From NCBI GenBank assembly GCA_009377585.1, contig WHTS01000040.1:1-36708 (forward strand): a stretch of 36,708 nt of DNA, written 5' to 3'. The notes under the pieces are model-generated. The model was given only the letters and a program-made list of their open reading frames with translations, did not search any database and was not told the origin of the DNA. Each line of letters begins with the position of its first letter. The stretch's first letter is position 1. A program made the position numbers and the translations under genes. Below are positions 11,699 through 16,810 of this stretch, in pieces. The DNA comes from Betaproteobacteria bacterium (GTDB taxonomy: Bacteria; Pseudomonadota; Gammaproteobacteria; Burkholderiales; WYBJ01).

Positions 11699-13333
11699 AT
11701 GGCCAAACGTAACAACCAATCCCGGAGCGCGGCGACGGTCGGCTACGAGGCGCAGCTCTGGCAGATGGCGGACGCTCTCCGCGGCAGCATGGATGCCGCC
11801 GAGTACAAGCACGTCGTCCTCGGGCTCATCTTCCTCAAGTACATCTCCGACGCCTTCGAAGAGCAGCACGCCTGGCTCGAAGCCGAAAAGTCCCAGGGTG
11901 CGGACCCCGAAGATCCCGACGAGTACCGCGCGCTCAACATCTTCTGGGTGCCCCCGGAAGCCCGCTGGGCGCACCTGAAGGCGCAGGCGAAGCAGTCCAC
12001 GATCGGCCAGCTCGTCGACGATGCCATGACCGGCATCGAGCGGGACAACCCGGCGCTCAAGAGCGTGTTGCCCAAGGACTACGCCCGCCCCGCGCTCGAC
12101 AAGACGCGCCTCGGCCAACTGATCGACCTGGTGAGCAACATCAAGATCGGCGACGAGGAGAGCCGCGCCAAAGACGTGCTCGGCCGCGTCTACGAATACT
12201 TCCTCTCGCAGTTCGCCAGCGCCGAGGGCAAGAAGGGCGGCGAGTTCTACACGCCGCGCTGCGTGGTGAAGCTTCTCGTCGAGATGCTGGAGCCCTACCG
12301 CGGCCGCGTGTACGACCCCTGCTGCGGCTCCTCGGGCATGTTCGTGCAGTCGGTGGAGTTCATCCGCGCGCACGCCGGAGCCGGAGGCGACCCGAAACGC
12401 CGGAACGGCAACGGCGGCAAGCCGAATGGACAAAAGCGGGCCGACATCTCGATCTACGGCCAGGAGTCGAACTACACCACCTGGCGGCTCGCCAGGATGA
12501 ACCTCGCGATCCGCGGCATCGACGGCCAGATTGCCCACGGCGACACCTTCCACAACGATCGCCACCCTGACCTCAAGGCCGATTTCATCCTCGCCAATCC
12601 GCCGTTCAACGTCTCCGACTGGGGCGGCGAGCGCCTGCGCGACGACAAGCGCTGGCAGTACGGCGTGCCGCCGGCCGGCAACGCCAACTTCGCCTGGGTG
12701 CAGCACATCGTCCACCATCTCGTGCCTGCCGGCGTGGCCGGCTTCGTGCTCGCCAACGGCTCGATGTCGTCCAACCAGTCGGGCGAGGGCGAGATCCGAA
12801 AGAACCTGGTCGAGGGCGATCTCGTGGACTGCATGGTCGCGCTGCCGGGCCAGCTTTTCTACTCGACCCAGATCCCGGCATGCCTGTGGTTTCTCGCGCG
12901 CGATCGCAAGAACGGAAAATTCAGAGACCGACGCGGCCACGTGCTCTTCATCGATGCCCGCAAGCTCGGCCGCATGGTGGATCGCACCCACCGTGAGCTG
13001 ACCGACGAGGACGTCGCCCGCATCGCCAACACCTACCACGCCTGGCGCGGAGCTTCTTCGTCCCCTCCCCCGCTTGCGGGGGAGGGACAGGGAGGGGGCT
13101 ACGCCGACGTCCCCGGCTTCTGCAAGAGCGCAACGCTGGAGGAAGTACGCAAGCACGGCCACGTGCTCACGCCCGGCCGCTACGTCGGCGCCGAGGCGCA
13201 GGAAGACGACGGCGAGCCGTTCGAGGAGAAGATGAAGCGGCTCACCGCCACGCTGCGCGAGCAGCAGGCGGAGGCCGCGAAGCTGGATGCCGCGATTGCC
13301 GCCAACCTGAAGGAGCTCGGGTATGGCGGGTAA
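11699..13333 (+). CDS. hsdM: Type I restriction-modification system methyltransferase subunit HsdM
   Basis: N6-adenine DNA methyltransferase subunit; normally M2S forms the modification enzyme and R2M2S the restriction enzyme. The start at 11699 (MAKRNNQ) is preceded by cagggaga and fits the family better than the in-frame ATG at 11663. The 544 residues have the N-terminal helical domain ([21 protein letters not shown]), [11 protein letters not shown] motif I ([12 protein letters not shown], about 203-214) and the catalytic NPPF at 300-303. At about residues 453-467 a palindromic repeat (13061-13098) is translated in-frame as [15 protein letters not shown], between AWRG and [11 protein letters not shown], which look adjacent in relatives. 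The stop overlaps the next gene by 11 bases. Without an hsdS in the locus its target recognition is unclear. Confidence 0.93.
13061..13098. repeat. Palindromic repeat embedded in hsdM
   Basis: An 11-bp perfect inverted repeat, ccctcccccgc (13063-13073) and gcgggggaggg (13076-13086) with a TT loop, is followed by acagggaggggg. Its architecture resembles the family A elements elsewhere in this window. It keeps the hsdM frame open. Confidence 0.75.
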
Positions 13334-14492
13334 GCGCCGCGGCAAGACATCCGACGAACGCCTGGCGCGCGGCCGCAGCCGAGCCGAGGCATGCTTCCCG
13401 GTAGCGCCTCCGAAGGCGAGCCTGCCGGCGGATTACGCGAGCGCCTTCGCCGCCATCAAGCAACGCATCCAGGAAGAGCGCCTGCGGGTGGTCCTAGCCG
13501 CCAACTCGGCGATGGTTCTGCTCTATTGGGACGTTGGCCGGACGATCCTCGACCGGCAGGAACGCGGAGGCTGGGGTGCGAAGGTGATCGACCGCCTGTC
13601 CGCCGATCTGCGCGAGGCCTTCCCCGACGTGAAGGGCTTTTCGCCGCGCAACCTCAAGTACATGCGCGCCTTCGCCGCGGCGTGGCCGGAGCGGGCGATC
13701 GTGCAAGAGGCTCTTGCACAAATCCCCTGGTACCACCACATCGCGTTGCTGGAGAAGCTCGATGAGCAGGCCGTCAGGCTTTGGTACGCCCGGCAAGCCC
13801 GCGAGCACGGCTGGTCGCACGACATCCTCGTCCTACAGATCGAGAGCCGCTTCCACGAGCGCCGGGGTAAGGCGGTTACCAACTTTCCGGCCACCCTGCC
13901 GTCTCCCGCCTCGGACATGGCTGTTCAGGTCTTCAAGGACCCCTACCTCTTCGACTTCCTCGGCACCGCCGATCCGCGCCGCGAACGCGAGGTCGAGCAG
14001 GCCCTCGTCGATCACATCCAGCGTTTCCTGCTCGAGCTGGGCAGCGGTTTCGCCTTCGTCGGGCGGCAAGTGCCGCTCGAAGTGGGCAATCAGGACTTTG
14101 TCGTCGATCTGCTTTTCTACCACCTGAAGCTGCGCTGCTACGTCGTCATCGAGCTGAAGGCAGTCTCCTTCGACCCAGCGTTCGTCGGCCAGTTGAACCT
14201 CTACCTCTCCGCCGTCGATGATCTTTTGCGCCACCCGGACGACCAGCCGACCATCGGCCTGCTCCTATGCCGAGGCAAGGACGAGATCGTCGTCGAGTAC
14301 GCTCTGCGCCACCTGAAGCGCCCCGTCGGCGTCGCCGAATGGGAGACTGAGCTCGTCGACAAGCTGCCAAAGGCACTGCGTGGCAGCCTGCCCACGGTCG
14401 AAGAGATCGAGGCCGAGCTTGGCGGGGCCGGAGTGCGAAGGAAGGGGAAGTCGGCTCGGGCCGGACGTAAGCCGACAAGGGGCGAGGCGTGA
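13323..14492 (+). CDS. DUF1016 (YhcG-type) PD-(D/E)XK nuclease-fold protein
   Basis: Encodes 389 residues. The N-terminal DUF1016 domain (about 38-190) contains [27 protein letters not shown] and [13 protein letters not shown]. The C-terminal YhcG domain (about 200-350) has a PD-(D/E)XK-like core: Asp262 in FVVDLLFYH, and Glu277-x-Lys279 in VIELKA, followed by GQLNLYL. The tail is basic ([13 protein letters not shown]). The family is often found beside type I R-M genes, but its molecular job is not established; a DNA nuclease is the natural guess. The ATG lies inside the last codons of hsdM (11-base overlap), implying translational coupling. It occupies the place where hsdS would usually sit. 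Confidence 0.9.
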
Positions 14493-14614: not shown

Positions 14615-16810
14615 ATGACCGCCTTCACCGAATCCGTCGTCGAAGACGCCGCCCTCGCCTGGCTGGAGGCGATCGGCTGGCGCATCGCTCACGGCCCCGA
14701 CGTCGCGCCCGACATGCTGGCGGCCGAACGGCGCGACTACGGTGAAGTCGTGCTGGCGCAGCGGCTGCGCGATGCGCTCTCGCGCCTCAACCCGGCGCTC
14801 TCCGCCGAGACGTTGGAGGACGCCTTGCGCAAGCTCACCCGGCCCGAAGGCACCGACCTCATCCAGCGCAATCGTGCGCTGCACCGCCTGATCGTGAACG
14901 GCGTGAACGTCGAGTACCGGACGAGCGCGGGCGAGATTCGCGGCGCACAAGCCCGGGTCATCGACTTCGACGACCCGGCCAACAACGACTGGCTGGCAGT
15001 CATCGGATTCACTGGCACGCCGATCGAGCTGGCCGACGCCAATACACGTGCGGTCTTCGGCGACTACATCAGCGTCTACGATATCCAGCGCGCGGTGCAG
15101 GACGGCGCGACGGTGCCCATCTACTACGAGAGCCGGCTCGCCAAGCTCGCGCTCGATGCGTCCGAACGGCCCAGGATCGATCCGGACTTCGAGGAGGCGA
15201 CCGAGGGCGAGGAGGTCGAGCGCAAGGAGAAGCTCAAGACCAAGTGGGCGCAGCTCGAAGCCGTGGTCGGCGCCGACAAACGCCTTTCGTTCGTAGCGCG
15301 CGACGTTGTCGAACACTTCGAGCGCCGGCTGGAGGCCATGGACGGGAAGGCGATGATCGTCTGCATGAGCCGGCGCATTTGCGTGGAGCTGTATCGGGAG
15401 ATCGCGAGGCTGCGGCCCGCCTGGCACGACGAAGACGACGCGCGCGGCGCGATGAAGGTCGTCATGACGGGCTCGGCCTCCGATCCCGCGCAATGGCAGG
15501 CGCACATCCGCAACAAACCGCGGCGCGAGGCGCTAGCCAACCGCTTCCGCGACCCCAACGACCCGCTCAGGCTCGTGCTGGTGCGCGACATGTGGCTCAC
15601 CGGCTTCGATGCGCCGAGCATGCACACGATGTACGTCGATAAGCCCATGCGGGGACACGGGCTGATGCAGGCGATCGCGCGCGTCAATCGCGTGTTCAAG
15701 GACAAGCCCGGCGGACTGGTGGTGGACTACCTGGGGCTGGCCCATGAGCTCAAGGCCGCGCTCGCTACCTACACCGAGAGCGGCGGCACCGGACGCACGG
15801 CACTGGACCAGGAGGAAGCAGTCGCATTGATGCTGGAGAAGTACGAGGTCTGCTGCGGCCTGTTCGGGCCGATCACGACGCCGGCAGGTGTCACGCCGGG
15901 CTTCGACTGGTCGAAGAAGTGGGTGAGCGGCACGCCGCCGGAGCGGCTGGCGCTTCTGCCCGCGGCGCAGGAGCACGTGCTGCGGCAGGAGAACGGCAAG
16001 GACCGCTGCATCCGCGCAGTGCGCGAGCTGTCGCAGGCCTTCGCGCTGGCCGTGCCGCACGAGGAGGCGCTGCGCATCCGCGACGACATGGCTTTTTTCC
16101 AGGCGGTGCAGGCCGTGCTTGCCAAGCGCGCGCCTGGCGACGCGCGGCCGGAAGAGGAGCTGGACCACGCAGTGCGGCAGATCATCTCGCGCGCGATTGC
16201 TCCCGAGGGCGTGGTGGACATCTTCGCCGCGGCGGGGCTGCAGAAGCCGGACATCTCCATCCTGTCGGAGGAGTTCCTGGCGGAGGTCCGGGGCATGCCT
16301 CAGCGCAACCTCGCAGTCGAGCTGCTCCAGAAGCTGTTGAGGGGAGAGCTTGCCTCGAGGCGGCGCAAGAACGTGGTGCAGGCCCGTTCCTTCGTCGAGA
16401 TGCTGGAGCAGACCATCCGCCGTTACCAGAACCGCGCCATCGAGGCGGCGCAGGTGATCGAGGAGCTGATCGCACTCGCGAAAGAGATGCGCGAGGCGAG
16501 CGCGCGCGGCGAGTCGCTCGGGCTATCCGAGGACGAGCTGGCCTTCTACGACGCGCTGGAGACCAACGACAGCGCGGTAAAGGTACTCGGGGAGCCGACG
16601 CTGCGCACCATTGCGCAGGAATTGGTGCGCACGGTACGAGCGAACGTGACGATCGACTGGACCATGCGCGAAAACGTGCGCGCCCAGCTGCGCGTGCTGG
16701 TCAGGCGCATCCTGCGCAAGTACGGATATCCGCCGGACAAGCAGGAGAAGGCAACCCAGACAGTCCTCGAGCAGGCGGCATTGCTCAGCGCTGGCTGGGC
16801 GGCGGCTTGA
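14615..16810 (+). CDS. hsdR: Type I restriction subunit HsdR with internal deletion (nuclease and Walker motifs missing)
   Basis: HsdR normally has about 1,000-1,100 residues: an N-terminal nuclease domain, two RecA-like translocase domains and a helical C-terminus. This frame gives 731 residues from [22 protein letters not shown]. It reads normally to NDWLAV (residue 129), then jumps in-frame to [16 protein letters not shown] at about base 15001. The missing stretch should carry the PD-(D/E)XK nuclease, Walker A (GSGKS) and the DEAH box. Retained parts are motif III (GFTGTP, 131-136), the second RecA domain with [18 protein letters not shown] and [10 protein letters not shown], and the full C-terminal region. 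The start at 14615 was chosen from family N-termini; the open frame extends back to 14489 through the hsdM remnant. Restriction activity is not expected. Confidence 0.88.

Follow-up and report, generated by a model that had tools for sequence, protein, structure and literature searches.

In classical type I restriction-modification operons, which have the order hsdM-hsdS-hsdR, the end of hsdM overlaps the start of the next gene, and this overlap of hsdM and hsdS is already known from two reports (PMC3510504, PMC6158711). The locus considered here lies at positions 11699 to 16810 of a 36,708-nucleotide stretch of a betaproteobacterial draft genome (G000:C40:1-36708, here called the window), and it has in common with the classical systems the HsdM and HsdR families, the operon order and an hsdM end that overlaps the start codon of the following gene. 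Unlike them, it contains no hsdS, its HsdR is devoid of the nuclease core, the Walker A motif and the DEAH box, and a yhcG gene is found at the position where hsdS would start. Judged from sequence comparison, the locus is very probably a type I restriction-modification operon that has decayed, apparently in recent times.

The gene that follows hsdM belongs to the YhcG/DUF1016 family (COG4804, PF06250; candidate PDC-S02 in PADLOC), and its product possesses both domains at full length together with the E-D-ExK residues. According to one study from 2005 (PMC1189080), E-D-E(I/L/V)K are the conserved PD-(D/E)XK residues of this family, and in Methanosarcina acetivorans a YhcG is associated with a type I cluster. 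Whereas YhcG is accompanied by hsdS in the relatives, it sits in a broken type I operon in the window. Extra and partly independently acting genes between hsd genes, as found here, are described for TgvAB (PMC11411939), PrrC (PMC12707154) and the Campylobacter rlo/mlo genes (PMC5183652). These are nested defence genes of other families, and the portions of those reports that were available do not mention hsdM-end copies bordering the embedded gene; in listings of open-licence papers, no account of hsdM ends duplicated on the borders of such genes came up.

The missing hsdS and the shortened hsdR

A preliminary description, made from the sequence alone, had listed the genes hsdM, yhcG and hsdR, and their order and coordinates are correct. 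The features of the locus are:

11699 to 13333, forward strand: hsdM, 544 amino acids, apparently intact (Pfam N6_Mtase 1.5e-106, HsdM_N 2.1e-27)
13241 to 13335, forward strand: hsdM 3' end with AAGGAG and an embedded start codon at 13323 (hsdM-end profile, alignment)
13323 to 14492, forward strand: yhcG/DUF1016, 389 amino acids, predicted PD-(D/E)XK nuclease, apparently intact (YhcG_C 1.7e-64, DUF1016_N 3.7e-43)
14492 to 14577, forward strand: degenerate second copy of the hsdM 3' end, probably the former hsdS leader (nhmmer 2e-12, alignment)
14568 to 14618, forward strand: 16-codon remnant open reading frame, an hsdS-like start apparently fused to the very end of an SLFN_AlbA_2-type gene (comparison with L074 and L041)
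14615 to 16810, forward strand: hsdR with a putative internal in-frame deletion, 731 amino acids (HSDR_N and SWI2_SNF2, both partial; longer in 42 relatives)
15001 to 15002, no strand: putative hsdR deletion junction, left side ...GCAGTC, right side ATCGGATTC...

For comparison, a panel was formed of the best 80 of 434 HsdM relatives (77-87% identity in the search), HsdM, YhcG and HsdR were placed in each of them, and their HsdS proteins provided a profile for the HsdS search. This profile finds nothing downstream of the window hsdM as far as hsdR, in agreement with the preliminary description, which had recognized no hsdS here. All 53 relatives for which both hsdM and hsdR are in hand carry hsdS between them, so that the window is the sole exception among 54. 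Six of the 80 relatives have no HsdS match: in four (L081, L082, L094, L096) fewer than 400 bases are available after hsdM, and the other two, L057 with 4.4 kb and L089 with 10 kb, have no hsdR match either. In L046, hsdS is cut by the end of the locus.

The short interval between yhcG and hsdR appears to preserve a scar of the lost gene. The remnant frame behind the degenerate hsdM-end copy begins with ATGGCGGTT, which resembles the beginning of hsdS in L088 (ATGGCGGTTGAG) and L042 (ATGGCGGGTGAG), and its stop codon overlaps the hsdR start codon, the ATG at 14615, the two frames sharing 4 nucleotides. Its tail is nearly identical to the C-terminal residues of the gene directly before hsdR in L074 and L041, which in L074 encodes SLFN_AlbA_2, HATPase_c_4 and HTH_24 domains. 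Such a fusion of an hsdS-like start with the tail of an accessory gene suggests one deletion of everything between the first hsdS codons and the final few of the accessory gene, although the matching accessory-gene end at hsdR was seen in 2 of the 80 relatives (L074 and L041), which makes few comparisons for this step.

The preliminary description also regarded HsdR as shortened. The shortness is real, and its form is an internal loss; a truncation at either end was considered and is ruled out by the internal position of the gap. In the window protein, HSDR_N matches profile positions 2-115 of 198 and SWI2_SNF2 positions 147-220 of 221. The same stretch comprises 1006-1061 amino acids in 42 relatives versus 730 in the window (searches and comparison used 14618-16810, which omits the first methionine). 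Of these 42 assembled stretches 31 were aligned and 11 omitted, ten with an internal stop, some of which probably reflect an estimated end overrunning the gene, and one out of frame. Relative to the aligned sequences, the window HsdR is short by 322-341 residues, mostly 326, between NDWLAV and IGFTGTP. In all 31, the absent segment contains QGSGKS and DEAH, and in 28 a PD..ExK match falls within it as well; the PD-(D/E)XK, Walker A and DEAH patterns are all absent from the window protein. TGTP and motif VI lie outside this segment and are retained, and in the rest of the protein 223 invariant columns are kept, with one substitution and a local insertion of 11 residues.

An order-level search found this HsdR at 79 places in 75 of 399 genomes; an alignment that spans residues 1 to 730 is given by the window alone. 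The other 78 places start at residue 97 or later; five of them, starting at 97 or 119, lie in open frames of 1035-1105 amino acids and are thus full length, and a few others lie in short frames (317-683 amino acids) that are fragments without the N-terminal part. Among the 20 listed of 161 plasmid records with HsdR matches, all matches start at 127 or 129. A second genome with the deleted hsdR was found neither at the 78 order-level places nor in the 20 listed plasmid records.

In contrast to these losses, no signs of decay can be recognized in the sequences of HsdM and YhcG. HsdM matches N6_Mtase and HsdM_N above cut-off, contains the catalytic NPPF and retains all 185 columns that are invariant across the 80 relatives. 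The frame of yhcG shares 11 nucleotides with hsdM (13323-13333). The family assignment in the preliminary description stands: DUF1016_N and YhcG_C both match above cut-off and over the whole length, and PADLOC PDC-S02 matches with 8.9e-149. All 82 columns invariant in 16 other YhcG sequences are kept, and E238, D262 and K279 (within ELK at 277-279) are invariant in 17 sequences including the window. The weakest Pfam domain match among the three gene products has an E value of 4e-18, so that chance is not an issue for these assignments. In NCBIfam, YhcG has no match and the HsdM and HsdR matches are all below the cut-offs, and a sequence search of the PDB yielded no chain resembling YhcG.

We think that these observations are best accounted for by an ancestral operon with the order hsdM, yhcG, hsdM-end copy, hsdS, SLFN_AlbA_2-type gene and hsdR, from which two segments would have been lost. 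One deletion would have removed hsdS and most of the following SLFN_AlbA_2-type gene, leaving the degenerate hsdM-end copy, an ATG and the last codons of the accessory gene at the hsdR start. The other would have removed about 326 hsdR codons in frame, and with them the PD-ExK core, the Walker A motif and the DEAH box. As HsdM, YhcG and the rest of HsdR retain nearly all invariant columns, the losses look recent, or the surviving genes still have a use. A type I methyltransferase without HsdS has lost its target recognition, and an HsdR without the nuclease and the first motor lobe can neither translocate nor cut DNA, so that neither modification nor restriction would be expected from this operon. 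YhcG, the embedded nuclease-like protein, is the sole component that might still act alone.

Several points weigh against this account. Three frames remain open and every invariant column is kept in HsdM and YhcG, which would fit a selected use as well, and both deletions are in frame, which has a chance of about 1 in 9. The events were reconstructed from relatives that are no nearer than 91% HsdM identity (L044), a sister strain with an intact operon at this site was not seen, and, as no close hsdS is known, the point at which hsdS was broken is not exactly located.

Alternative explanations

The deletions could be assembly artefacts of an operon that is intact in reality, and the source genome is indeed a draft of 6.76 Mb in 242 contigs with a contamination figure of 4.85%. 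Misjoins by an assembler need a longer shared word than is available here, where the two sides of the hsdR junction have in the relatives at most TCA, about 3 nucleotides, in common. That an assembler should err twice within 0.5 kb, each time keeping the reading frame, would also be a rare coincidence, and no stray fragment of an hsdS or hsdR belonging to this subfamily was found elsewhere in the genome, from which very short contigs could be missing. We therefore consider an artefact improbable.

Similarly improbable is a working variant of the kind suggested in the preliminary description, in which HsdM and YhcG would form a complex, YhcG would bind and cut the DNA, and the short HsdR would be an adapted helper. 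The complete set of invariant columns in HsdM and YhcG and the reading frame kept by both deletions are compatible with it. The comparison with relatives speaks against it. A YhcG of at least 48% identity is found near hsdM in nine relatives (L026, L033, L043, L044, L048, L050, L060, L064, L074), and hsdS follows downstream in all nine, in L043 as a partial gene at the contig end. Three relatives have a more distant YhcG (30-37%): L036 with hsdS, L069 with an hsdS start at the contig end, and L089 with none. In the relatives, YhcG thus stands beside HsdS and does not substitute for it, and YhcG as a replacement of HsdS was rejected on this ground; what holds of this earlier suggestion is that yhcG takes the hsdS start position. 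The visible hsdS scar and the absence of the deleted hsdR from the other order-level places and the listed plasmid records likewise argue for decay, the other possibility that had been raised at the outset.

A class-level search found YhcG at 34 places in 29 of 369 genomes, the window's included, and 20 of the 33 other places were examined in context. Six of these have hsdM in the stretch, and five of the six also hsdS, in the order hsdM-hsdS-yhcG in L135; in L127, the contig ends just past yhcG. Among the remaining 14 places, several are close to a contig end, where the absence of hsdM is not proven. The nearest intact version is L126 (HsdM 80%, YhcG 82%), in which yhcG is followed by an hsdM-end copy, a further stretch, another copy, hsdS and hsdR; this hsdR retains the segment that is absent from the window and is cut further on by the contig end. 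Within the searches made, the combination of hsdM, a DUF1016 gene and a short hsdR, which the preliminary description had proposed to look for in other genomes, occurs only in the genome of the window, an outcome that this description had named as one that would refute its suggestion.

L089 is an observation of its own: at 11539-15285, hsdM and the distant YhcG (37%) stand together with neither hsdS nor hsdR in 10 kb. It can be counted in favour of an HsdS-free variant, but it may itself be a truncated operon, with a downstream frame that we take, from its appearance, to be integrase-like.

The genome contains three other hsdS genes, one in C168 with its own hsdM and hsdR, one in C222 cut by the contig end, and a lone one in C28, which score 75.3, 55.7 and 175.7 bits, respectively, against the HsdS profile of the subfamily. 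That the window HsdM is aimed in trans by the C28 subunit, with the operon as an orphan methylase whose specificity gene is split off, could draw on this highest score and on an hsdS that is uncut (417 amino acids) beside a reduced hsdM without an HsdR match, but the pairing is unlikely, given that HsdS proteins of the subfamily not cut by a locus end reach 337-532 bits (with 230 and 217 for the split HsdS of L041) and that the C28 hsdM end, with 42% identity to the window HsdM over 74 residues, looks like another subfamily. The C28 locus itself (L102, 684-3219, reverse strand), a lone hsdS by the last part of an hsdM, is a second broken type I locus of this genome; its hsdM-remnant frame overlaps a frame that we presume from its appearance to be tctC-like.

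Genomic setting

The flanks of the locus are syntenic with the congeneric genome G003, which matches the window at 6832-7669 and at 17714-18579 and beyond. Between these, the matching site of G003 (L146) has about 2.9 kb of other sequence in place of the roughly 10 kb of the window (7669-17714), which hold two tctC genes, an HpcH/HpaI aldolase gene and the hsd remnant. In the 2.9 kb of G003, the two tctC genes, the aldolase gene and the frame at 16961-17608 had no tblastn match, and the hsd genes had no blastn match. As the flanks are shared and the interval is unmatched, the operon lies in a lineage-specific stretch. A tRNA scan of the window found none.

Copies of the hsdM end at embedded genes

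More interesting than the locus itself is the slot in which its yhcG stands, with hsdM ends as its borders. The start codon at 13323 inside hsdM is used by yhcG here and by hsdS in relatives without an inserted gene, of which 32 of 33 have the start codon of the hsdS frame inside the hsdM end. Copies were searched with a profile of hsdM ends, which replaced a first test with the 60-nucleotide hsdM end of each locus. An extra copy was found in 21 of 40 loci that have a gene between hsdM and hsdS (19 of them at E 7e-7 or better) and in none of 33 loci with direct joining; L086, whose own hsdM end is displaced, was excluded from this count, which would be 22 of 41 with it. The copies carry an AAGGAG-like stretch that resembles a ribosome-binding site, together with the start codon of the next gene. 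Copy-bearing loci include L020, L026, L032, L034, L036, L037, L038, L040, L042, L043, L044, L056, L059, L060, L061, L063, L064, L074 and L088, and further L112, L114, L117, L126 and L130.

What follows a copy is hsdS or, in loci with several copies, also another gene or a short frame; three copies are present in L037, L060, L063, L064 and L074, five loci in all, and in L043 the copy leads into a short frame, with hsdS further on. At the order level, L112 and L114 show the same pattern, a copy separates yhcG from hsdS in L117, whose hsdM is off the contig, and L116, L119 and L120 have hsdM and hsdS joined directly and no copy. Two extra copies are present in L126, and in L130, with an HsdM 49% identical to that of the window, about 50 codons of its own type of hsdM end are repeated after yhcG. 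The window fits the slot, as its yhcG starts inside hsdM and is followed by the copy at 14492-14577. Pfam matches of ten accessory genes, nine of them slot genes, comprise Fic, SLFN_AlbA_2/HATPase_c_4, nucleotidyltransferase and ORF6N domains, and the slot gene of L056 has no Pfam match. In another type I system of the source genome (L099, G000:C168, 4645-6300, reverse strand), two genes that we take to be AbiE-toxin-antitoxin-like stand between hsdM and hsdS.

The repeat pattern is an observation; from it, one may propose that the hsdM 3' end serves as a reusable docking sequence, and that cassettes of a gene and an hsdM-end copy are gained, swapped and lost by recombination between lineages, a reading to which we would give about an even chance. 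In such a cassette, the inserted gene would take the embedded start codon and the copy would give hsdS a fresh one, and the window would be a loaded slot whose downstream hsdS was deleted later. When the hsdM ends of 81 loci are ranked against each copy, the end from the copy's own locus comes no higher than 18th for 24 of the 27 extra copies (it is 9th in L040, 6th in L026 and 1st in the window), which disfavours a recent local duplication for most copies. The presence of YhcG is scattered over the HsdM tree, a weakly supported one with 12 of 78 inner branches starred: it requires 9 changes for 10 carriers, a number as low in 198 of 500 shuffles. On the same weak tree, loci with hsdM joined directly to hsdS show some clustering: 20 changes are needed, where shuffling gives a mean of 24.6 and a value this low in 16 of 500 cases. 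The copy pattern and the scattered YhcG fit cassettes moving between lineages, but also an old duplication with drift. Against the slot, 19 of the 40 inserted-gene loci have no copy, and the copies of L021 and L078 are weak (0.0019 and 0.0061), near the one match of the reverse-strand control (0.007, L070).

For annotation, this means that the locus should not be recorded as a new HsdS-free restriction system, and that its yhcG is a nuclease-like gene that is still intact in what is very probably a dead operon. Beyond this locus, the copies offer a testable account of how type I operons may gain extra defence genes by means of a duplicated hsdM end without breaking the translation of hsdS, and if the cassette mechanism is true, a search for hsdM-end copies would be a simple way to embedded defence genes.

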